DNA of 50,716 bases from Opitutaceae bacterium. Its GTDB lineage: Bacteria > Verrucomicrobiota > Verrucomicrobiia > Opitutales > Opitutaceae. The stretch is taken from the NCBI GenBank assembly GCA_028280945.1, contig JANQKV010000066.1, positions 1 to 50,716 of the forward strand. The letters are read 5' to 3'. Made by a program: the position numbers and the translations under genes. The notes under the pieces were generated by a model. It saw only the letters and a list, made by a program, of their open reading frames with translations, did not search any database and had not been told where the DNA came from. Of the stretch, positions 535 through 10,244 are shown in pieces. Positions within the stretch are counted from its first letter, which is position 1; each line of letters opens with the position of its first letter.

Positions 535-1884
535 ATGAGCACTGATTCCGTTCTCTCGCGTCGCAGTTTTCTGCAGAAATCTACCCTCGCCTCCGCTGCT
601 GCCACGGCATTCCCGGCGATCATGAAATCACAAGGGAGCGGACCTTCCCCCAACTCGAAGATCAACTTGGCGATAGTCGGATGCGGCGGCCAGGGCCGCA
701 ATCCTGTCCGCAATCTGACGATGCATACGTTTGCGGCGTTCTGCGACGTCGATGACGAGCGAGCCGCGGAAAGCTACACCGCGCACCCGGATGTTCCGCG
801 GTTCCGCGACTACCGTGAGATGTTCGCCAAGATGGGGGACAAAATTGATGCGGTCGTCATTTCGACTCCCGACCACATGCACTTCCCGATCGCGATGACC
901 GCGGTCAAACTGGGCAAACACGTCTATGTCGAAAAGCCTCTCACCCACACCGTCGAAGAGGCACGTCTTTTGACCGAGGCAGCGCGCAAAGCGGGCGTGA
1001 TCACCCAAATGGGCAATCAGGGACACAGCAACGAAGGCACTCGAATCACCAAAGAATGGATACAGGCCGGCGTGCTCGGCGAAATTCGCGAAGTCTACAG
1101 CTGGACCAACCGTCCCATCTGGCCTCAGGGCGTCGGGCTGCCCGACCACAGCAAGGCCATTCCCGTTGTTCCCGATACCCTCGACTGGGACCTGTGGCTG
1201 GGGATCGCCGAAAACCGTCCCTACGATCCCGCCTACCTGCCCTTCGCCTGGCGTGGATGGTGGGATTTCGGCACCGGCGCATTCGGCGACATGGCGTGCC
1301 ATATCATGGACGCGACCTTCTGGGGGCTGGAACTCGAGTCCCCCACTGCGATCGAGGCCTTTTCCGCCAAAAACACCGCCCACTCCGGCCCCACCTCCTC
1401 GGTGGTGACCTACGAGTTCCCCGCCCGCGGTTCCATGCCGGCGGTAACATGGAAATGGTGCGACGGCGGGCTTACCCCGACGTTCCGTCCCGACTGGGAA
1501 GACGGCCGCGAGTATTACCGCGACGGCAGCGGCACCGTGATTGTCGGATCGGAAGCGAGCATGGTGAACAGCACTTACAACTCCAGTCCCCGGATCTTCC
1601 CCGAAACGAAGATGCGGAAACTGGCCCCCTCACTGCCGCCGAAGACGCTTCCGCGCGTGGAGACGAGCAACCACTACGAAGCTTGGGCCAATGCGATCGT
1701 GGACGGACGCCAACCGGCATCGAACTTCGACTACGCCGGTCCCTTCACCGAGACTGTATTGCTGGGCAATGCCGCCATCCGCGCCAATCGTCGTCTCGAC
1801 TTCGATGCGAAAAATGTCCGGTTCACCAACTATGAGCCCGCCAATAACTATCTGACCAAGTCCTACCGTCCGGGCTTTATGTAG
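535..1884 (+). CDS. Gfo/Idh/MocA family oxidoreductase with Tat signal
   Basis: A 449-residue NAD(P)-dependent sugar or polyol dehydrogenase-like protein. The N-terminus holds a twin-arginine signal (SRRSFLQKS, Arg9-Arg10) followed by an Ala-rich stretch, so export in folded form to the periplasm is expected. The Rossmann dinucleotide-binding motif VGCGGQGRN lies near residue 48, the family EKP motif (VEKPLTHTVEEA) near 140, and an Asp/His-containing GDMACHIMD segment near 250. The length fits the large Tat-exported group common in Verrucomicrobia and Planctomycetes. The ATG at 535 is chosen because the Tat motif follows directly. The substrate is unknown. It is separated from the next gene by 92 nt and a GC-rich hairpin, so it may be its own transcript. 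Confidence 0.9.
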   Translation: MSTDSVLSRRSFLQKSTLASAAATAFPAIMKSQGSGPSPNSKINLAIVGCGGQGRNPVRNLTMHTFAAFCDVDDERAAESYTAHPDVPRFRDYREMFAKMGDKIDAVVISTPDHMHFPIAMTAVKLGKHVYVEKPLTHTVEEARLLTEAARKAGVITQMGNQGHSNEGTRITKEWIQAGVLGEIREVYSWTNRPIWPQGVGLPDHSKAIPVVPDTLDWDLWLGIAENRPYDPAYLPFAWRGWWDFGTGAFGDMACHIMDATFWGLELESPTAIEAFSAKNTAHSGPTSSVVTYEFPARGSMPAVTWKWCDGGLTPTFRPDWEDGREYYRDGSGTVIVGSEASMVNSTYNSSPRIFPETKMRKLAPSLPPKTLPRVETSNHYEAWANAIVDGRQPASNFDYAGPFTETVLLGNAAIRANRRLDFDAKNVRFTNYEPANNYLTKSYRPGFM

Positions 1885-1976: not shown

Positions 1977-2510
1977 ATGAGTGCCGACACCCCCTCGAAA
2001 CCCAATATCATCGAAAACCTCACGGATACCTTCGGGTATCTCGTGCTTCGCGTCTGGCTGGGCCTGCGAGCCCTGCTCACCGGCTTGGAAAAATACGCCG
2101 GAGTAAAGGTCACCGAGGAACCGCTTTTGGACGAATTTGGTGAACCCGACATCAATGGTGCTGTCGTGGAGGTTAAATCGAAAGTGTATAGCATGGAGCA
2201 CTATCACGGACTTCCCCCAGCCATGGCGGACAAGTTCGCCGAGGAACCACTTATTCCCGGCTGGGGACTCGCGCTCTACGACGCAGTCCTGGGGCCCGTC
2301 CTGATCCTGTTGGGGGTCTCCCTGCTGATTGGGCTCGCTCCCCGGATTTCGTTGTTCCTCCAAGGCCTGCTCTACTCAAGCCTGACAATTGGACTTATTT
2401 TGTTCAACGCCTCTGACGGTGTCGCTTGGCTCGGCATCCACATCCTGTTGGTTGTCGCCGCACTCCGCCTCGTCAAACACGACCGTTTCGCTGTTCTCCC
2501 CCGTTGGTAA
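1977..2510 (+). CDS. DoxX-like integral membrane protein
   Basis: A 177-residue membrane protein with about four hydrophobic segments: residues 18-38 (LVLRVWLGLRALLTG), about 100-122 (LYDAVLGPVLILLGVSLLIG), about 127-147 and 150-165. A hydrophilic loop of about 55 residues separates segment 1 from the rest. The layout, with a charged residue in the first helix (FGYLVLRVWLGLRAL), resembles the DoxX/DoxD family, linked elsewhere to quinone-coupled thiosulfate oxidation or of unknown role. It ends 9 nt before the second Gfo/Idh/MocA gene, so the two are probably co-transcribed. The family call is by topology and weak similarity; the function is not established. Confidence 0.6.
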   Translation: MSADTPSKPNIIENLTDTFGYLVLRVWLGLRALLTGLEKYAGVKVTEEPLLDEFGEPDINGAVVEVKSKVYSMEHYHGLPPAMADKFAEEPLIPGWGLALYDAVLGPVLILLGVSLLIGLAPRISLFLQGLLYSSLTIGLILFNASDGVAWLGIHILLVVAALRLVKHDRFAVLPRW

Positions 2511-2519
2511 CCCACTGTC

Positions 2520-3857
2520 ATGAATCAAGTCGCCTCTGATCTTAACAACCTGCCTTGGTCGCGCCGAGGCTTCCTGAAGACCGGCCTCACCGCCGGTGGC
2601 ATGGTCCTCGCGGCCCCGTCGATTATTAAAGCCCAGAGTTCGGGCAACACCCTGAATGTCGCATTGGTGGGCGTCGGTTCACAAGGCCGCGTGCTGCTCG
2701 ACTCGCTGCTTAACATTCCGGATCTGAACTTTGTCGCCGTCTGCGACATCTGGGAACTGTCGCGCCGTTATGGCGTCAATCGTCTCCGCAAGGCTGGATT
2801 CCAGCCCAACGGTTACGAAGACATCGAGGACCTAGTCAGCAAAGAGACCGATCTCGACGCCGTGATCATCGCGACGCCTGATTTCTGGCACGCCCCCCAC
2901 ACCAACCTGTGCCTCAAGGCAGGAATACACGTTTACTGCGAAAAGATGATGGCGCATACGGTCGAAGACGCCCGCTCCATGGTCGTCACCCAGCGCGAGA
3001 CCGGTAAATTGCTCCAGATCGGCCACCAGCGCCGGTCCAACCCGCGTTACCTTCACGCCCTCAACAACATCATCAAGAAGGCAAAGATCCCCGGCCGCAT
3101 CACCAACATCAACGGCCAGTGGAACCGAGCCGTCTCCGACGATCTCGGTTTCCCCCGACGCTACGAAATACCGGCGGAAACCCTGCAGCGCTACGGCTTC
3201 AAGGACATGCACCAGTTCCGCAACTGGCGCTGGTTCCGTGATCTCTCCGGTGGTCCGATTTCCGATCTGGGCGCCCACCAAATCGACATCTTCAACTGGT
3301 TCCTCGGCACGGGTCCCAGCAGCGTGATCGCCTCAGGCGGCACCGATTACTACTCCACCCGGGAATGGTATGACAACGTCATGGCCATCTTCGAATACGA
3401 CACCGCGGAAGGGCCGGTTCGCGCGTTCTATCAAGTACTGACCACCACAAGCGCTGGCGGCGGTTACTTCGAGCAGTTCATGGGTGACGAAGGTTCGGTC
3501 AAAATGTCCGAAAACCCGAGCCTGACCAAGGTCTACCGCGAGGACCGCGCGCCCGAGTGGGACAAGTGGATTGACCTCAAATACCTCGAACAGTCCGCCG
3601 CGCCCGCGCCAGCCGAAGATACCGTGGCTGACGTGCGGGAGACGGCTCCCCTCGTCGCTTACGAACTCCCGGTCGTGCTCAACAAGCCGCTGCATCAACC
3701 GCATTTGGAAAACTTCTTTGGTGCGGTGCGCGGCGAAAACGAACTCAATTGCGACGGTGCCCACGCTTTTGAAAGCGAAGCGCCGATCTTCAAGGTCAAC
3801 CCCGCCGTGGCTGCCCGTACAACCATCGAAATGAAGCCCGAAGACTTCAAAGCCTGA
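2520..3857 (+). CDS. Gfo/Idh/MocA family oxidoreductase with Tat signal (second copy)
   Basis: A 445-residue protein with a twin-arginine signal (WSRRGFLKTG, Arg15-Arg16) and a hydrophobic stretch to about residue 38, so it is probably periplasmic. The nucleotide-binding motif VGVGSQGR is near residue 50. The usual EKP active-site motif reads CEKMMAHTVEDA: the lysine is kept but the proline is replaced by methionine. I recall this form from a subgroup common in Planctomycetes and Verrucomicrobia. GGPISDLGAHQIDIFNWF near residue 245 is the Asp/His region. It is divergent from the gene at 535, so not a recent duplicate. It follows the DoxX-like gene by 9 nt and precedes the discoidin gene by 23 nt. 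The substrate is unknown. Confidence 0.9.
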   Translation: MNQVASDLNNLPWSRRGFLKTGLTAGGMVLAAPSIIKAQSSGNTLNVALVGVGSQGRVLLDSLLNIPDLNFVAVCDIWELSRRYGVNRLRKAGFQPNGYEDIEDLVSKETDLDAVIIATPDFWHAPHTNLCLKAGIHVYCEKMMAHTVEDARSMVVTQRETGKLLQIGHQRRSNPRYLHALNNIIKKAKIPGRITNINGQWNRAVSDDLGFPRRYEIPAETLQRYGFKDMHQFRNWRWFRDLSGGPISDLGAHQIDIFNWFLGTGPSSVIASGGTDYYSTREWYDNVMAIFEYDTAEGPVRAFYQVLTTTSAGGGYFEQFMGDEGSVKMSENPSLTKVYREDRAPEWDKWIDLKYLEQSAAPAPAEDTVADVRETAPLVAYELPVVLNKPLHQPHLENFFGAVRGENELNCDGAHAFESEAPIFKVNPAVAARTTIEMKPEDFKA

Positions 3858-3880: not shown

Positions 3881-4537
3881 ATGAAAATCCGTACGATTTC
3901 CTTTCTCCTCGCGGCCTGCGTGACACCCGCCTTCCTGGCCGGTGAGACCAAGGTGCTCGAACTTGAATTTCCTCCGCCCAAGGTGACCAGCACCCCCGCA
4001 CCGATTCGCCTGCCTCACCTCGAGGCGCCAAACACCCCCCCGCCTGAGATCCAAGTCCCGGCTAACGTCACCAACGTTGCCTCCGGCAAGACCGTGATCT
4101 CGTCCGACCCATGGCCGATCATCGGCGAGCTCGATATGGTGACCGACGGGGACAAGGAGTCCGAAGACGGCTACTACGTTGAACTCGGGGAGATGCAGCA
4201 GTGGGTGCAGATCGATCTGGAAAGCGCCACGGAGGTTTACGGAATCGGCCTCTGGCAATACCACGCCCAGCCCCGTTCCTACCTCGATGTCATTGTTCAA
4301 GTCTCCAACGACGAAGATTTTGGCGAAGGGGTCACTACCCTCTTCAACAATGATCATGACGACTCTTCCGGCATGGGCCGTGGCTCGGACCCCGCTTATC
4401 TCGAAAAAAATCGCGGGCGTCTCATCCCCGGCAACAAAGCCGTGGGACGTTACGTGCGAATTTACTCCAACGGTAACACCAGCGACGGACTAAATCACTT
4501 CATCGAAGTGGAAGTCTTTGGCCGCGCTGCTGAATAA
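3881..4537 (+). CDS. Exported discoidin (F5/8 type C)-like domain protein
   Basis: A 218-residue protein with a Sec signal peptide (MKIRTISFLLAACVTPAFLAG, cleavage probably near residue 21), a proline-rich linker (about residues 28-65), and one discoidin-like beta-sandwich. The recognisable core is NVASGKTVISSDPWP, LVTDGD-like MVTDGDKESEDGYY, WVQIDLESATEVYGIGLWQ and the closing GRYVRIYSNG. These domains bind carbohydrate or cell-surface ligands. It is likely periplasmic or surface-exposed. It lies 23 nt after the Tat oxidoreductase, and its end overlaps the next gene by 20 nt, implying translational coupling to a membrane glycosyltransferase. The ligand is unknown. Confidence 0.75.
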   Translation: MKIRTISFLLAACVTPAFLAGETKVLELEFPPPKVTSTPAPIRLPHLEAPNTPPPEIQVPANVTNVASGKTVISSDPWPIIGELDMVTDGDKESEDGYYVELGEMQQWVQIDLESATEVYGIGLWQYHAQPRSYLDVIVQVSNDEDFGEGVTTLFNNDHDDSSGMGRGSDPAYLEKNRGRLIPGNKAVGRYVRIYSNGNTSDGLNHFIEVEVFGRAAE

Positions 4538-6035
4538 CCGGGCTTGGTGGATTTTGGCTGTGCTGGCGGTGGTCGCCGGCACAGCTTGGCGCGCTTCCCA
4601 CTTGGAATCGCGCCCCTTGCACGCCGACGAGGCGGTGCAGGCCTGGCAGACCTGGCGACTGCTTGATGGCGAAGGGTATCGGTATGATCCCTACGACCGT
4701 CACGGCCCTTCTCTCTACTTCGGAGCGGCCTGGCTTCATCAATTGCGCGGGGGCAAGGCGGCGGATTTTGATGACCGCGACGCCCGGCGGTTTTCCCTGG
4801 CCCTCGGAGTAGCTACTCTGGCGCTGCTCGGCTTCGGCACCGGCAGCATCGGTCTCACGCGTGCGACCGGTGCCGTGGCGGCTGCCCTGCTCGCCTTTGA
4901 GACCATGAGCTCGGTCTACCACACCTACTTTGTCCAGGAAGCCACGCTCGCTTTCCTGATTTGGGCTTTCGTATTCACTTTGGTGGGACGCAGGGAAAGG
5001 GACTTTTCTCACGGATCCATGTTGGTGATGGGTCTGATCATCGGGCTCGCTCAAGCAACGAAGGAAATAACGCCGCTTTATGTCATCATGGCCTTGGGGG
5101 CGTGGTGGGTCAGTCTGCCCCGCGCCGACCAACCGGAGATACCAAGTCCACGCGGATTAGCATTGTTGGGACTGGGCTGTTTGCTGCCCTACGCCTTGTT
5201 CTATTCCAGCTTCGGCCAAAACATCCATGGTGTCTCCGACGGCCTTAAGCACTACTTTCTACAAATAAGCCGGCTGCAGGAAAGTCCGCATGAATACCCA
5301 TGGTGGTATCACTTGCGGTATCTGGGTATCCTGCCTTCCGGTGGTCCGCGTTGGGGGCAGTATGGGTTGCTTGCCCTCGCGGTGGGAGGTGGTGCCCTGG
5401 CATGGCGAAAGTCTGCTCCCGTGGCCGCACGCACGGTGGCGACCTTCACGGGCAGTCTGCTGTTTTTGCATTCCGTCGTGGCTTACAAGACTCCTTGGTT
5501 GCTGCTGACGTCAGTCATTGGGCTCGTCATCCTGGCGGCCTATTGCCTGGTTGTCATCGGGGCCGGCCGGCCATGGCGCTGGGCCCTGGCTGGGGTGATT
5601 TTGGTTGCTTCCGCCGGACAGTCTTTGAGCAAAAGTCGACTCGCTCTCGAGCGTTACCCGGGAGATGTGCGAAACCCCTATTTCTACGTCCAGACTCCCC
5701 GGGCCTTTGCGCGCTTGCCTGATCGGCTGGCAAATCTGGAGCAAGCGAATGATGGCGAGATCCGCGTTGCCGTCGTGAGCGCCGAGCATGCCTGGCCACT
5801 GCCTTGGTATCTGCGCGACGCTTCCGCCGTGGGTTATTTCGAGAGCCCGCCATCTGATTTCCAGACTTGGGATGTGGTGCTTTGGGATAGTCAATTGGGT
5901 GATCCGCCCATGAATTTGGGCGATAACGCGGTGATTGAGTTCTACGGATTGCGACCCGGAGTATTGTTGCACTGCTTCATTCGTCAGCCGGTTTGGGAAA
6001 AGCTCTTTCCCCCACTTAAACCTCAGAACGAATGA
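4518..6035 (+). CDS. Agl23-like polytopic membrane glycosyltransferase (TIGR03663-type)
   Basis: A 505-residue membrane protein with a GT-C layout: an N-terminal helix (WWILAVLAVVAGTAW), then an acidic first loop (LESRPLHADEAVQAW, RYDPYDRHGPSLYF) and roughly ten further hydrophobic segments, ending in a soluble tail from about residue 385. The HADEA and RHGPSLY patterns match the TIGR03663/Agl23 group, relatives of dolichyl-phosphate-mannose protein mannosyltransferases, which use lipid-linked sugars outside the membrane. The start is TTG at 4518, inside the previous gene; no ATG exists upstream of the first helix. It overlaps the next gene by 4 nt (ATGA). The neighbouring GT2 domain could supply its polyprenyl-phosphate sugar; that link is inferred from gene order. 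Confidence 0.75.
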   Translation: MAALLNNRAWWILAVLAVVAGTAWRASHLESRPLHADEAVQAWQTWRLLDGEGYRYDPYDRHGPSLYFGAAWLHQLRGGKAADFDDRDARRFSLALGVATLALLGFGTGSIGLTRATGAVAAALLAFETMSSVYHTYFVQEATLAFLIWAFVFTLVGRRERDFSHGSMLVMGLIIGLAQATKEITPLYVIMALGAWWVSLPRADQPEIPSPRGLALLGLGCLLPYALFYSSFGQNIHGVSDGLKHYFLQISRLQESPHEYPWWYHLRYLGILPSGGPRWGQYGLLALAVGGGALAWRKSAPVAARTVATFTGSLLFLHSVVAYKTPWLLLTSVIGLVILAAYCLVVIGAGRPWRWALAGVILVASAGQSLSKSRLALERYPGDVRNPYFYVQTPRAFARLPDRLANLEQANDGEIRVAVVSAEHAWPLPWYLRDASAVGYFESPPSDFQTWDVVLWDSQLGDPPMNLGDNAVIEFYGLRPGVLLHCFIRQPVWEKLFPPLKPQNE

Positions 6036-7684
6036 ATTCTCCTCCTGCCATCGTCCGCATTAACGATCTTGGTAGCCTGGCGGTCTACGATCATGAGGCA
6101 ATGGCGACCAGATTCAGGTTTCATCTCGCTCCACCGACGGATGGATCGTCGCTAGGTCCCATCGCCGAAGAGGTGTTTCGACTGGTGGATCGCGTGGAGG
6201 AAAAACTGAGTCTTTATCGGGACGGGAGCGATGTCACCCGCATCAACCGGGCGAGCGACGGCGATACTCTGCGCATCGATGAGATCACGCACCAGTGCCT
6301 GCTCAATGCCATCGAGATTGCGGCTGCTTCGAACAACGCCTTTGATCCCTTTGCAGGATATCAAGCGATCGTGGCCAAGGAACAATCGGTTCCGGCCCAC
6401 CTACGCGATCTGCCTCCTCCGGCTGAGAACGACAACGCACCGGTCATAGCGATCGACCCGGACCAGGCACAGGTCACCAAGCTCAGTGGCCGACGCTGGT
6501 TGGATCTTGGAGCCATAGGCAAGGGAGCTGCGCTGGACGCCGTGGCCGGGTTGTTGCGGGATTGGGAGGTCCCCTCGGCAGTGCTAAGCGGGGGGGGATC
6601 AAGCATTCTCGTCTTTGGAGAACCTCTTCAGCCCGGACAGGAAGAATGGGAACTGAGTCTTCCGCAATCGCCGGGAAACCCACGGCTCAGCCTGGAGGCG
6701 CCCTTCGCCTTGGGTGCATCGGGCGAGGGTTACCAACCAGGGCATATCATCGATCAGCAATCCCGCGTAGCCCGGCCGCAATCCCTGGTCATGGCTCCTA
6801 CGGCCGCGTTGGCTGACGCTCTTTCCACCGCTGCGGTACTGCTGCCCGATGACTCGCTCCGCGGAATACTGGGGGACGATCCCCGTTTCGCTGTCTTTGC
6901 CACCCAAGTGGAGGCACCCACTCTTTCGACCGGCGTTTTTGCCAGCGAAATCGTCCCTCCCCCGCCTGAAATCGCTTTGACCATACCCTGCTGGTGTGAA
7001 TCCCAGAGGCTCCCCCAATTTTTACGCGATTTGGCTGATGCATTGAGTGCAACCAGACTCCCGGTGGAAATTCTGATCGTGGATGATGCTTCCCCGGAAC
7101 GCGAAGCGGAGATGACCAACTCGGTGGTTGAGTCGGTGCGAAAGCTGCATCCTTTTGTCCGGCCGATGGCCCGCGTGGATCAACACTACGGCAAAGGCGG
7201 CGCGGTTTACTGGGGCTGGCGACAAGCTACGCCGACCGTGCGATGGTTGGGGTTCGTGGATGCCGACGGGGCCATTCCACCGCAGGCAGTTGTTGAAGGG
7301 ATACAAGTGGCGTTGGCCCAGGAAGCACCCTTGCCGCTGATCGCCGCGAACCGCTACCACAATGATCCTGCCAAACCCGTTGGCAGGTCATGGGTGCGCC
7401 AACGCACCGGCGGTTGGTTTGCCCAGTGGGCCCGACGCCAGCTCCAGCTCGAGGTCGAGGACTGCCAATGTGGCTTTAAAATCGTCCCGGCGCATTGGTG
7501 GAAGGGTCATGCCGACGAATGGCGGGAAAAGGGGTATGCCTTCGATTTGGAGCTCTTGGTGCGGGCACGCGAAGATGGCATTTCGGTTCAGAATTTGGAT
7601 ATCCCGTGGCAGGAAATCGGCGGATCCCACGTGGGGTTGGGGGATGGACTTCGCTTGATCAAATCTGTGCGAGACTGGCGCTGA
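6032..7684 (+). CDS. ApbE flavin transferase domain fused to a family 2 glycosyltransferase
   Basis: A 550-residue two-domain protein. Residues about 20-295 match ApbE, the FAD:protein FMN transferase that attaches FMN to Thr/Ser of target flavoproteins: MATRFRF near 24, LSLYRDGSDVTRIN near 59, FDPFAG near 104, LDLGAIGKGAALD at 157-169, a His-Ile-Ile-Asp at 238-241 and ADALSTA near 261. Residues about 313-550 are a GT-A fold glycosyltransferase resembling dolichyl-phosphate-glucose synthases: LTIPCWCES, LIVDDAS at 348-354, catalytic-type DAD at 410-412, and DCQCGFK at 477-483. No signal peptide or membrane anchor is seen, so both domains appear cytoplasmic, whereas many ApbE proteins are exported. 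Start ATG overlaps the previous stop. An in-frame G8 run (6590-6597) encodes part of SGGGSS. I know of no characterised enzyme with this fusion. Confidence 0.85.
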   Translation: MNSPPAIVRINDLGSLAVYDHEAMATRFRFHLAPPTDGSSLGPIAEEVFRLVDRVEEKLSLYRDGSDVTRINRASDGDTLRIDEITHQCLLNAIEIAAASNNAFDPFAGYQAIVAKEQSVPAHLRDLPPPAENDNAPVIAIDPDQAQVTKLSGRRWLDLGAIGKGAALDAVAGLLRDWEVPSAVLSGGGSSILVFGEPLQPGQEEWELSLPQSPGNPRLSLEAPFALGASGEGYQPGHIIDQQSRVARPQSLVMAPTAALADALSTAAVLLPDDSLRGILGDDPRFAVFATQVEAPTLSTGVFASEIVPPPPEIALTIPCWCESQRLPQFLRDLADALSATRLPVEILIVDDASPEREAEMTNSVVESVRKLHPFVRPMARVDQHYGKGGAVYWGWRQATPTVRWLGFVDADGAIPPQAVVEGIQVALAQEAPLPLIAANRYHNDPAKPVGRSWVRQRTGGWFAQWARRQLQLEVEDCQCGFKIVPAHWWKGHADEWREKGYAFDLELLVRAREDGISVQNLDIPWQEIGGSHVGLGDGLRLIKSVRDWR

Positions 7685-7705: not shown

Positions 7706-9898
7706 TTAAAACAGCTCGCCTTGCTGCTCATCATCGGGACTCTCCGCAACCTGCAAAAACGCGCCGTATTTGGTCACCCAGTCGTCCAGCTTCTTGAGAT
7801 AGAATTTTGGGTCGTAGGGTCTCTGCAAAGGATCAAAATCCTCCATGGCACACGCCCGCTGCCAATTGGTTGTCTGGCCCTTTTGACGGGGTAGAATGTA
7901 GTAACTTACCCGATCCCCCATGCGTGGTCGTGGTTCCATCTTAAGGGCCACCTCGGCCGCTGCCCGCCGCGGCTTGCCGCCTCCGGCCACAAATCGCTCA
8001 TACGCCTCGGGGTTCTGACTCAATGCCTCCGTCTTAGCCAATTCTGCGACGGGAATTCCGCCTGACTCGATTTGCGTTCGATACTCCGCCAACAAAGCTT
8101 CCGGTGATTCGCCGCCCGCCCCAAGCAGGTTGAAGATGAGGCTCTCGCTGAGTCGTTTCAGATAAGGCTCGATGCCGCGCGAACGAAGTGCACTACCGCG
8201 CAAAATCACCCGCTCTCCATCGTAAAGCGCGTAGTTCTTGGCTTTGTAGCAAAACATGGCGTCAAACCGCCCGTCGTATTCCAGTTCAATACCCTCGGGG
8301 AGGATCTCGGCCACCTGCTTCAACAAGTTTTCCGGATGCTCAAAATGCTCTTCGCTCGACAGGTAAATCCCGTCGGTGTCCGCCTCCAGAATGGTGACCC
8401 CGAGATCATGCAACCGTTGGATCAGGGATTGAAGCAGCTCCCGGCCTCTCCGGGTGACCTCAGCCGCCAAATCCCCATCGCCGAAACGAGCCCCGGAAAA
8501 ACCGAGATACCCGTAGAACGAGTTAATGAGAATTTTGAAACTCGATTGTCGCGCGGCCGCCTCGGCCCGTTCGTCCGCGTCGGGTGAATCACGCGCCAGT
8601 TTCTTATAGTGCAGCCGGTATTCCCGCAGTTGACGAAGCAGCGGGATAAAAACTCCCAGCACATCGTTCGCGGGATGCCGATCCATGTGCAGCAGCAGGC
8701 TCGGATACAGCGAAGCGACATCGAAGTGCAACACGTGCCGGTAGACGCCTTCTTGAAAACTGCGCGTGAATCCTCCTTCAAAGGCAGCCACATCGGGCGG
8801 CACGGGTGTGGCCTGCCTTGCATGGTAGTAGTGCTCGAGAAACAGCAGATCGATTTTACCCGTCGTTCCCCGCAGCGTCGCTTCCTGCAGGGTAATCGGA
8901 AACGTTTTGACCTGTTCGAAATAAGTCGGGAGCAGGATGTCGGCGATGCCCTTCGTTTCCCGCAAGTCGTCCCGCAGGTAAGCCAAAAATGCGTTGCGGT
9001 CGTCGCGAAAGGCCCGGGCGATTTCGTTTCCCGGCAGATATGTGCGGTCACCTCCATCCGCCGGAGTCACCCCAAAATGACGGGCCACATCCTTGAGCCC
9101 GAACGCCTCCAATTCCCGCGTGGAGACATCGTAAAGCTGGACCAGCAGAAACGTATCCACCACCGTTCGCCCCGGCAGGTCGCAACGCGGAAAATCAATC
9201 CAACGTTCGGCTACTTTGAGACGGCTGTTGCGAAACTTGGCCACCTGTCCAAACCGCCCCCAGCGGCATGGCACCTTCAGGCGCTTGGCTCGTTTTCTCA
9301 GGTAGTCCAGGTCGAACTTGAAAATGTTGTGTCCTTCAATGGTATCCGGATCGTGTGCGGCCAACACGGCATTGAGCTGACCGAGCAGCTGTTTTTCACC
9401 CTCGTCCGAATCATCCTCCAAAACCAGCGTCAGATCTGTATCTCCAAACTGAATACCGATCGCCAGCACGCGGTCCCGCGGCTGGGCCGGATCACTGAAA
9501 TCACCGGTGCTCGAAGCCGTCTCGATATCGAGCTGACAGCGCCTCAGTTCATGGAACCGGACTGCATGGAACAATCGCTCCCGATGGTGCAGCAAAAACT
9601 GGGACTCATAGGGCTTGATCACGTCGACCGGAAATTCCCCCCGCCAGGTTCGGGCCGACGCCTCCAAGGCATTGAGGTCGTCGCATTCGACCAATCGACG
9701 ATACACTGCGTCCCCCGCCAAATCGACAATCCCGGCACCATCGGGAATCGGCGGCGGGCTGGCCCCTCCCACCCACACGAACCAACTCCCATCCTGCTCG
9801 GATTCTATCCGGTTGCCGGCCGGGTCATGTCGGCTTGTCCAGACCTTGCCGGTTGGATCTACCCAGATGCCGCAGAGGTCCTGGGTTTTCGACTCCAT
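7706..9898 (-). CDS. Family B DNA polymerase (Pol II-like) with 3'-5' exonuclease
   Basis: A 730-residue family B polymerase. All key motifs are present: exonuclease I DIETAS (about residue 124), exonuclease II GHNIFKFDLDYL (about 189), exonuclease III YLRDD (about 307); polymerase motif A DVASLYPS (about 393), motif B with KILINSFYGYLG (about 455), motif C with DTDG (about 507; the canonical Ser/Glu after DTD is Gly) and a KAKNYAL segment. Proofreading and synthesis should both work. Size is near E. coli Pol II (783). I prefer the ATG at 9898; an upstream ATG at 9931 would overlap the neighbour by 23 nt. In known bacteria such enzymes act in repair or translesion synthesis; no other repair gene adjoins it. 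It converges on the ApbE fusion gene. Confidence 0.93.
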   Translation of the reverse strand: MESKTQDLCGIWVDPTGKVWTSRHDPAGNRIESEQDGSWFVWVGGASPPPIPDGAGIVDLAGDAVYRRLVECDDLNALEASARTWRGEFPVDVIKPYESQFLLHHRERLFHAVRFHELRRCQLDIETASSTGDFSDPAQPRDRVLAIGIQFGDTDLTLVLEDDSDEGEKQLLGQLNAVLAAHDPDTIEGHNIFKFDLDYLRKRAKRLKVPCRWGRFGQVAKFRNSRLKVAERWIDFPRCDLPGRTVVDTFLLVQLYDVSTRELEAFGLKDVARHFGVTPADGGDRTYLPGNEIARAFRDDRNAFLAYLRDDLRETKGIADILLPTYFEQVKTFPITLQEATLRGTTGKIDLLFLEHYYHARQATPVPPDVAAFEGGFTRSFQEGVYRHVLHFDVASLYPSLLLHMDRHPANDVLGVFIPLLRQLREYRLHYKKLARDSPDADERAEAAARQSSFKILINSFYGYLGFSGARFGDGDLAAEVTRRGRELLQSLIQRLHDLGVTILEADTDGIYLSSEEHFEHPENLLKQVAEILPEGIELEYDGRFDAMFCYKAKNYALYDGERVILRGSALRSRGIEPYLKRLSESLIFNLLGAGGESPEALLAEYRTQIESGGIPVAELAKTEALSQNPEAYERFVAGGGKPRRAAAEVALKMEPRPRMGDRVSYYILPRQKGQTTNWQRACAMEDFDPLQRPYDPKFYLKKLDDWVTKYGAFLQVAESPDDEQQGELF

Positions 9899-9908
9899 GG
9901 CAGGGCGG

Positions 9909-10244
9909 TTAGAAACGGTAGTAGACGGCAAGCAGTGCCACGAGAATCACCGCGAGGATCACGATCATGAACAAGCCGGATTTTTGCCGCTGACGATAGC
10001 CGATGCCCGCCAGGGCACTCAGAGCGAGCCAGCACACCATCTTCACTATCAGCCAACCGGGAAACCCCGTGTAGAGTTTGTGCCACAAACCAATGCCGCT
10101 CACGAGCTGCACAATGCTCGCAATACCCGTAATCATCAGGACTTTCTTTCGGGTCTCCTGTGCCGCCGCAAAGGCGTAAAATATTCCCCCGGTGAGGACG
10201 ATAAGCGACAGGACATGAAGGACGTAATAAAACTGGTGTGACAT
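9909..10244 (-). CDS. Small integral membrane protein of unknown function
   Basis: A 111-residue protein with four predicted hydrophobic segments (about residues 5-25, 36-54, 63-80, 89-108) joined by short basic loops, for example AAQETRKK and GYRQRQKSG. The size and four-helix layout resemble small membrane families such as SirB/DUF-type proteins found in many Gram-negatives, but I do not recognise a specific family. The ATG at 10244 is chosen because the first helix starts at residue 5; the in-frame upstream extension would run through the 6S RNA candidate. It ends 10 nt before the polymerase start and is probably co-transcribed with it. Confidence 0.75.
   Translation of the reverse strand: MSHQFYYVLHVLSLIVLTGGIFYAFAAAQETRKKVLMITGIASIVQLVSGIGLWHKLYTGFPGWLIVKMVCWLALSALAGIGYRQRQKSGLFMIVILAVILVALLAVYYRF

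Follow-up and report, generated by a model that had tools for sequence, protein, structure and literature searches.

A conserved Verrucomicrobiota envelope gene set in which, in one genus, an ApbE-like flavin transferase domain is fused to a polyprenyl-phosphate sugar synthase-like domain

ApbE enzymes normally attach flavin to proteins, an activity known mostly from secreted electron carriers that share one short motif. Polyprenyl-phosphate glycosyltransferases of family GT2 normally load a sugar onto a membrane lipid, and Agl22 is also a GT2 enzyme. Cytosolic ApbEs with a client are described, in the available part of PMC12052999, for the fumarate reductase of Klebsiella and for the ApbE-fumarate reductase fusions of trypanosomatids. 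The survey of Meheust et al. (2021), according to the part of PMC8238504 available, kept only genes with a signal peptide or lipidation site, and the ApbE clade considered here would therefore be missing from it.

The stretch of DNA analyzed, hereafter the window, comprises positions 1-50,716 (50,716 nucleotides, forward strand) of contig JANQKV010000066.1 from an Opitutaceae bacterium (GCA_028280945.1). It carries, all on the + strand, a conserved Verrucomicrobiota envelope gene set consisting of a MauE/DoxX-like membrane protein of 177 aa (1977..2510), a core-partner Tat-exported Gfo/Idh/MocA oxidoreductase (2520..3857), a secreted discoidin (F5/8 type C-like) protein (3881..4537; PF00754/PF22633 just below cut-off), an Agl23-like GT-C/PMT-type membrane protein (4518..6035) and an ApbE of a particular clade, accompanied in part of the genomes by a GT2. 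In the window the ApbE-like flavin transferase domain (6032..6946) and the GT2 domain (6941..7684) are the N- and C-terminal parts of a single protein. A second Tat-exported oxidoreductase of the Gfo/Idh/MocA type, glycoside 3-dehydrogenase-like (535..1884), is accessory and found in only part of the loci; it scores 458.7 bits against NF058561 (BT_2158_fam), below the cut-off of 750, and 19.6 bits against the TAT signal. An earlier note on this DNA had proposed a small system; the system is larger than that, and the MauE/DoxX-like protein and the oxidoreductase at 2520-3857 also belong to it. The gene set recurs in Verrucomicrobia, and no description of it was found in the literature searched.

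The fusion is one frame of 550 uninterrupted codons (6032-7684), as had been read earlier, with PF02424 matching residues 24-278, Glycos_transf_2 residues 318-431 and the DAD motif present. The Agl23-like frame terminates in the ATGA at which the fusion begins, which confirms the 4-nt overlap described before; the overlap claimed with the discoidin gene amounts to 20 nt provided that the TTG start of the Agl23-like gene is correct, and loci L060, L061 and L062 show an identical one. An accident of assembly does not explain the fusion, because six of the seven sampled other genomes of the genus have a full-length copy at 56-60% identity (7/8 counting the window's own genome). In the seventh (G006) the gene is split between frames beside a run of N, through either decay or an error in the assembly. 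The search for the domain pair elsewhere had a divided outcome: the fusion extends across the genus and was not seen outside it among the genomes searched, while in sister genera ApbE and GT2 are separate neighboring genes, overlapping by a 4-nt ATGA in at least two (L077, L078). Separate neighbors in sister genera, taken with full-length copies in congeners, therefore indicate that the fusion is derived but maintained. It might nevertheless have no function of its own, translationally coupled operon genes having lost an intervening stop while the halves act separately. This origin, which we consider rather doubtful, agrees with the ATGA overlaps, with the restriction to one genus and with the closest ApbE outside it (G015), whose genome keeps the gene set with no GT2 match, but not with the retention of full length across the genus at such divergence.

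The ApbE half scores 94.7 bits against PF02424 (cut-off 25.6), or 97 bits where the two canonical ApbE copies of the genome score 240-247, and belongs to a distinct clade (support 100/99). Residues M24, C89, D158, L159, G160, G163, K164, G165, S190, W206, S230, H238, D262 and T266 are invariant in 52 aligned sequences. Asp262 and Thr266 are presumably Mg ligands. The active-site residues, which the earlier note had left to an alignment, are kept: across the clade Ser230 and His238 occur in 86/86 members, Asp262 in 84/86 and Thr266 in 85/86, and the active site is intact in 84/86, the exceptions being L140, with Glu, and the broken L063, with a gap. A Ser/His/Asp catalytic triad of ApbE is named in the available part of PMC12052999. 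The Asp of the GGD stretch, found in 4/8 outgroup rows, is replaced by Ser190 in 86/86 members of this clade and in 21/21 of a second clade; five members of the first have an Asp one position earlier. This Asp does not define ApbE, as the solved 4xdt and 4xgw also lack it. A hydrophobic N-terminal stretch is absent in 85/86 members, consistent with the previous reading that no signal peptide is visible, by a crude test that passes 44/53 discoidin leaders, only 3/8 outgroup ApbEs and 6/57 Tat oxidoreductases. From sequence, the clade appears to be cytosolic.

A fold so divergent from the canonical copies could serve mainly as a scaffold, or as an FAD pyrophosphatase, joining GT2 and Agl23 in a role other than FMN transfer. 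Such a role is suggested by the lack of a client bearing the motif (see below) and by genome G054, whose clade ApbE has lost the active-site Lys, His, Asp and Thr and persists beside an Agl23-like gene. The oxidoreductase and the membrane protein are unmatched in G054 at the thresholds used. We regard this reading as quite unlikely, given the intact residues in nearly all members and the strong co-occurrence with a redox enzyme.

The GT2 half matches PF00535 with 46.7 bits (cut-off 23.3), and the DAD motif (FVDADG) is invariant in 30 aligned domains. The solved chains nearest to its profile are ArnC (9hwj), sll0501 (5eke) and dolichol monophosphate mannose synthase (5mlz), the last matching positions 6-242 of 249; by similarity and the DxD motif the half is classed as polyprenyl-phosphate sugar synthase-like (DPMS/GtrB/ArnC). 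The Agl23-like protein scores 93.3 bits against TIGR03663, below the cut-off of 126.25, and 27.4 bits against PF02366, while all 34 aligned relatives match TIGR03663 at E<=0.001 (best E 2.3e-57); it is accordingly classed as Agl23-like rather than as a TIGR03663 member. The membrane protein at 1977..2510 is similarly termed MauE/DoxX-like rather than a Pfam member, since it reaches 12.2 bits against MauE (cut-off 27), its relatives (n=30) matching MauE in 23/30 and DoxX in 13/30 at E<=1; the gene occurs in 44/86 loci of the ApbE clade. The anticipated co-occurrence with TIGR03663-type genes is borne out, an Agl23-like gene lying directly upstream of ApbE in 63/86 loci and within 200 nt in 36/53 genomes of the class that have the clade. 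Outside the class, 12/14 fetched ApbE loci contain Agl23 and 7/14 the core oxidoreductase. The proposed, still hypothetical chemical tie between flavinylation and glycosylation agrees with this adjacency and with the conserved fusion, but not with G015 or with a second Agl23 type, of which 14/36 loci have a GT2-Agl23 pair with no clade ApbE nearby.

The core oxidoreductase scores 67.9 bits against PF01408 and 17.3 bits against the TAT signal TIGR01409 (cut-off 16.7), and RR-x-F is found in 53/57 oxidoreductases. Among 236 genomes of the class, the ApbE clade is present in 53, the oxidoreductase in 49 and both in 48, although the profiles follow phylogeny and the genomes are therefore not independent. 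In these 48 the two genes lie less than 10 kb apart in 32, more than 300 kb apart on the same contig in two, and on different contigs in 14, some of which may reflect assembly breaks. Fifteen further genomes of the order (eight with a fetched ApbE locus without Agl23 and seven whose context was unfetched) contain the oxidoreductase in 14/15 and an Agl23 gene in 12/15, adjoining ApbE in G253. In G113 (98% complete), ApbE and Agl23 are present with no oxidoreductase match.

The second Ser190 clade (n=21), likewise with no visible signal peptide, adjoins a different Gfo/Idh/MocA gene in 15/21 loci, with twin-arginine leaders in the four inspected; a strong adjacent oxidoreductase is absent from 6/21. 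No family other than ApbE and oxidoreductase exceeds 5/21 loci, and no recurrent sugar-lipid gene was found alongside. The tree keeps the two clades apart, the second grouping with canonical rows under a midpoint root, so the shared partner may be convergent.

The motif D-x-x-[ST]-G-A-[ST] is found in 0/412 members of six families (0/323 with ApbEs excluded); the looser [ST]GA[ST] occurs in 6/45 MauE/DoxX-like proteins, 2/108 oxidoreductases, 2/74 Agl23-like proteins, 1/43 GT2 and 0/53 discoidins. To our knowledge, Gfo/Idh/MocA enzymes are not flavoproteins. The Tat oxidoreductase, earlier named as a possible client, stands as a conserved partner, but lacks the motif expected of a client. In favor of the reading set out below, in which it is the leading client, are the co-occurrence, the neighbors of the second clade, G054, where the oxidoreductase is unmatched and the ApbE degenerate, and the ordinary partners of the genome's two other ApbEs (a DUF3570 gene next door to one, and about 9 kb from the other the single FMN_bind gene that the genome has). 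The missing motif, the separation of the two Ser190 clades in the tree, the degenerate ApbE of G054 beside its Agl23-like gene, G015, G113, the 6/21 second-clade loci, the phylogeny-bound profiles and the fact that ApbE adjoins Agl23 more often than the oxidoreductase count against it.

FMN might instead go to the discoidin protein or to a product encoded elsewhere, the oxidoreductase acting only downstream in that pathway. The discoidin gene is found in 52/86 loci, and in 51/51 relatives one Ser and T38 are invariant, the latter mostly within [GS]TP in a proline-rich tail that follows the leader. That leader is of Sec type whereas the ApbE appears cytosolic, and the second clade offers no further recurrent neighbor family; we judge this alternative unlikely.

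A bolder alternative has the ApbE half moving FMN from FAD onto a hydroxyl of the polyprenyl-phosphate hexose made by GT2, after which the Agl23-like protein would flip or transfer the flavin-sugar to an exported protein, providing covalent flavin outside without FAD export. We know of no ApbE with a sugar acceptor. Apart from the fusion itself and the lack of a protein motif, this route draws on the 4-nt overlaps (ApbE-GT2 in sister genera, Agl23-ApbE in many loci), on another GT2 that, where present, sits between Agl23 and ApbE (L072, L081) and on the invariant discoidin Thr as a possible acceptor. In the liposome work described in the available part of PMC11182771, the Agl23 of Haloarcula hispanica moves sugars that are lipid-linked. 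The second clade, with its oxidoreductase and no recurrent sugar-lipid gene, G015 and the 14 GT2-Agl23 pairs without clade ApbE make it very unlikely; its extension, in which flavin held within the glycan would be the envelope electron carrier of the Tat-exported dehydrogenase, is very improbable indeed.

The best explanation, which we hold tentatively, is that a cytosolic enzyme of the ApbE clade matures an exported redox module, in which the dehydrogenase is the leading client, and that a lipid-sugar pathway of the Agl23 type runs alongside. It builds on what was observed of the gene set and its co-occurrence, of the clade and its intact active-site residues, and of the history of the fusion. 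The ApbE half would take FAD in the cytosol and place FMN on its partner before export. The Tat oxidoreductase would exit folded and cofactor-loaded, so that its bound NAD(P)H could donate electrons to the membrane protein and to quinones. A polyprenyl-phosphate hexose would be the product of the GT2 half. The Agl23-like protein would flip this lipid or use it on the outer side, probably to glycosylate that exported apparatus at sites such as the discoidin tail, and the fusion would hold both maturation activities together.

Compared with known systems, the ApbE half resembles ApbE/Ftp FAD:protein FMN transferases in its DLGxIGKG, SG...H and AD..ST motifs, its Ser/His/Asp triad and its profile matches to 1vrm and 4xgw. 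It differs in having no visible signal peptide, a near-invariant Cys89, the GT2 fusion in one genus, a gene set without a D-x-x-[ST]-G-A-[ST] partner, and a Ser in place of the GGD Asp of 1vrm (GGN in 4xdt, GGA in 4xgw). As in the extracytosolic systems of Meheust et al. (2021; Nqr, Rnf, NapH-like, DUF2271, DUF3570), the ApbE is clustered with a membrane protein, but it appears from sequence to be neither secreted nor lipidated and has no motif client, and no FMN_bind, DUF2271 or DUF3570 gene was seen in the window cluster. As far as the Klebsiella and trypanosomatid cases are described in the available part of their source, they share a cytosolic ApbE dedicated to a neighboring or fused redox enzyme; here the likely client is Tat-exported, and what is fused to ApbE is a glycosyltransferase rather than the client. 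Agl22-Agl23 of H. hispanica, in the available part of PMC11182771, similarly combines a TIGR03663-type membrane protein with a glycosyltransferase acting on lipid-linked sugars, whereas the system of the window is bacterial, has a member that scores below the TIGR03663 cut-off and comes together with an ApbE and a redox module. Finally, the core oxidoreductase, whose profile is nearest to DgpA, has the twin-arginine leader and Rossmann domain of Tat-exported Gfo/Idh/MocA sugar dehydrogenases (glucose-fructose oxidoreductase, DgpA, the BT_2158 family), but forms a distinct conserved subfamily tied to the gene set. The route by which a periplasmic NAD(P)-bound enzyme of this type could be re-oxidized also becomes testable. 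The fusion, read from its sequence, suggests that one polypeptide can combine flavin transfer with lipid-sugar synthesis, and an apparently cytosolic clade with an Agl23-type gene upstream in most of its loci seen across the phylum, a Tat-exported dehydrogenase as partner and no motif client points to an unrecognized class of flavin maturation.

The fusion of an ApbE flavin transferase with a family-2 glycosyltransferase (GT2) is real, young and maintained. As the earlier note had read it, one uninterrupted frame of 550 codons (6032-7684, +) holds both halves, and the Pfam matches to ApbE (residues 24-278) and to a family-2 glycosyltransferase domain (residues 318-431) lie above cut-off. The 4-nt overlap reported with the Agl23-like gene (4518-6035) is likewise found, as an ATGA joining the 3′ end of that gene to the fusion start; the TIGR03663 (Agl23) match of 4518-6035 lies below the model cut-off. 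Profile comparison with solved structures places the GT2 half nearest to ArnC, sll0501 (GtrB) and dolichol monophosphate mannose synthase (5mlz). A structure predicted for the fusion from a three-row alignment has a mean pLDDT of 41.9. Downstream lies a family B DNA polymerase gene with an exonuclease domain (7706-9931, −), found in the same opposite orientation in several congeners. A scan of 20 ORFs of the window also delineates a large surface-polysaccharide cluster (18350-44919) with an ABC-2 transporter and its ATPase, many glycosyltransferases, a Wzy_C O-antigen ligase and a Bac_transf priming transferase.

The idea that the domain pair recurs in other genomes holds within the genus, but beyond it the two domains are separate. 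In a sample of 57 genomes, including the window organism's own, the full-length fusion is present in six of the seven other congeners (56-60% identity), a conservation that rules out an origin by chance or assembly. In the seventh (G006) it is broken at about residue 260 across two frames, next to a run of N. Outside the genus no full-length fusion was found, whether among these 57 genomes or among 273 from the order. ApbE and GT2 are separate neighbouring genes in other genera (for example in genomes G019, G026, G241, G263 and G297), and an ATGA is shared by the ApbE stop and the GT2 start at loci L077 (G297) and L078 (G241). The closest ApbE outside the genus, that of G015 (53%), is accompanied by the remaining gene set, while neither this genome nor the locus has a GT2 match, which makes the GT2 a frequent but dispensable companion.

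Our best reading, held tentatively and at somewhat less than an even chance, is that a cytosolic ApbE matures an exported redox module, with the dehydrogenase as leading client. Fourteen columns of the ApbE half are invariant among 52 relatives (M24, C89, D158, L159, G160, G163, K164, G165, S190, W206, S230, H238, D262 and T266). Ser-His-Asp is given as the triad of ApbE/FmnB in PMC12052999. None of 86 clade members departs from S190, S230 or H238; T266 is retained in 85, D262 in 84 and C89 in 83. The earlier note had allowed for a dead domain lacking its active-site residues; their retention rules this out for the clade, and the copy of genome G054 does look dead. The absence of a visible signal peptide agrees with the lack of an N-terminal hydrophobic stretch in 85 of the 86 members, according to a crude test that is positive for 44 of 53 discoidin leaders, yet for only three of eight outgroup ApbEs.

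C89 is confined to this clade among the sequences compared. Position 190 is Ser also in all 21 members of a second clade and Asp in four of eight outgroup rows. Solved ApbEs vary there (GGD in 1vrm, GGN in 4xdt, GGA in 4xgw), so that Ser190 marks the clades and does not prove new chemistry; a change from GGD to GGS was dropped as a hallmark because the Asp is missing also from two solved ApbEs. In a tree of 72 sequences, built with 43 of the 86 clade rows and without the broken L063 sequence, support is 100/99 for the clade, one degenerate G054 sequence included, and 100/99 for the second clade, which joins the canonical rows under midpoint rooting. The second clade is therefore no longer regarded as a sister clade, since the tree does not join the two, and this slightly lowers the probability of our best reading and slightly raises that of three rivals.

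Recurrent neighbours emerged from the clustering of 61 loci, and a profile search of 93 loci gave as the usual order MEM177, oxidoreductase, discoidin, Agl23-like and ApbE, with GT2 last where present. Gene calls are naive longest ORFs, and loci were fetched from ApbE matches, partly for a nearby GT2 match, which biases GT2 frequencies. MEM177 (1977-2510 in the window) is a MauE/DoxX-like protein with a score below cut-off, and solved-structure profile searches with the Agl23-like and MauE/DoxX-like alignments returned nothing usable. The oxidoreductase (2520-3857) carries RR-x-F in 53 of 57 members, and its profile is nearest to DgpA, inositol dehydrogenases and glucose-fructose oxidoreductase. 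In the 86 loci with a clade ApbE, Agl23 is immediately upstream in 63, elsewhere in 9 and absent from 14; the oxidoreductase occurs in 50, the discoidin gene in 52 and MEM177 in 44. Some genomes (loci L072, L081) have another GT2 between Agl23 and ApbE. Outside the class, 14 fetched ApbE loci (193-303 bits) comprise 12 with Agl23, seven with the core oxidoreductase (>440 bits) and two with the complete gene set (L190, L194).

The partners also travel together across genomes. Among the matches listed for 236 class genomes, a single sample, the ApbE clade is found in 53, the oxidoreductase in 49 and both in 48, and MEM177 is found in 39, of which 38 are shared with the clade; these genomes are related, and Fisher values for co-occurrence consequently overstate the evidence. 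Strong Agl23 matches occur in 64 genomes, and the proposed association with TIGR03663-type proteins is borne out by 49 of the 53 clade-ApbE genomes (both among matches listed). The 53-genome set rests on a cut of about 245 bits, chosen by us at a gap in the score list; E-value cuts for the other searches, including that of 15 further order genomes (oxidoreductase in 14, Agl23 gene in 12), were also our choice. In the 48 genomes, ApbE and oxidoreductase are less than 10 kb apart in 32, on separate contigs in 14, and on one contig more than 300 kb apart in two. Among matches listed, five genomes have ApbE without the oxidoreductase: completeness is 77-78% for G472 and G476, a contig end falls at the relevant place in G308 and G480, and G113 is without explanation. 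The converse occurs once (G355, 75% complete).

In the cytosol, ApbE would have FAD at hand, and its targets would be limited to proteins awaiting export and to the cytosolic side of the membrane. Tat substrates cross the membrane already folded and with their cofactors in place, which makes the oxidoreductase a natural candidate client. The flavinylation motif D-x-x-[ST]-G-A-[ST] is found in none of 323 members of the partner families; of the 2574 longer ORFs in these loci, four carry it, all outside the families. An acceptor site in the partners would therefore be new. Candidate positions in the oxidoreductase are T310, S173 and S330, kept in 48 of 48. In the discoidin protein (3881-4537), residues 31-39 form a conserved P-x-P...[GS]TP in a proline-rich tail outside the discoidin domain; T38, present in 51 of 51 and mostly as [GS]TP, could be a glycan or flavin acceptor. 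MEM177 is an unlikely Ser/Thr acceptor, with no invariant Ser/Thr in a 30-member alignment; at one position all 37 sequences carry either Ser (11) or Thr (26), and a loose [ST]GA[ST] occurs in 6 of 45 family members. Placement of FMN on a polyprenyl-linked sugar made by the GT2 would account most directly for both the ApbE-GT2 fusion and the missing motif, but to our knowledge a flavin on a lipid-linked sugar is without precedent, and we consider it very improbable.

A canonical role of the fusion through DUF3570 or FMN_bind proteins was set aside, as those partners go with the two other, canonical ApbEs of the genome. One (locus L001, contig C47) adjoins a DUF3570 protein, a kind of ApbE substrate reported in PMC8238504; the other lies about 9 kb from the sole FMN_bind match of the genome. 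The large flavinylation survey in that source kept only genes with a signal peptide or a lipidation site, which would leave the clade outside its coverage. Glycosyl-, Verrucomicrob- or DoxX words were not found in the accessible text of PMC8238504, nor glyco-, Verrucomicrob- or DoxX words in that of PMC11334425. The component parts are known kinds (ApbE, DPMS/GtrB-type GT2, Agl23-like and Tat Gfo/Idh/MocA proteins). Among the papers listed from an open-licence library, none was found to describe the ApbE/glycosyltransferase/Agl23/DoxX/Gfo combination, and the client named here is a candidate.

Comparison of the clades bears on the choice of partner. The second ApbE clade has GTS and likewise shows no signal peptide; in 15 of its 21 loci (L163-L182 and L184) the neighbour is a Gfo/Idh/MocA gene of another kind, and 12 of its 21 genomes are without Agl23 at E<=1e-60 among matches listed. 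The exported oxidoreductase is thus the partner common to both clades, and the second clade with its Gfo/Idh/MocA gene may be a separate two-gene system. In G054, whose genome is 99% complete, locus L189 (6011-8304) retains an Agl23-like gene overlapping the clade ApbE by 4 nt; this ApbE carries substitutions at the Lys, His, Asp and Thr of the active site, an aligned Ser-to-Lys change is read as an alignment shift, and profile searches at the thresholds used gave no oxidoreductase or MEM177 match. The case is a single one on a long branch; it is compatible with catalysis linked to the oxidoreductase, and also with a non-catalytic function alongside Agl23.

Of 36 loci with a second type of Agl23 gene, 14 have it in a divergent pair with a GT2 gene (genomes G386, G397, G405, G349, G461, G438, G453, G394, G371, G416, G477, G401, G409 and G434); 12 of these genomes have no clade ApbE, and the other two have it on a different contig. 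In Haloarcula hispanica, Agl23 moves lipid-linked sugars in liposomes, according to PMC11182771. The bacterial pairs resemble the H. hispanica pathway and may correspond, in bacteria, to the Agl22-Agl23 pathway of archaea.
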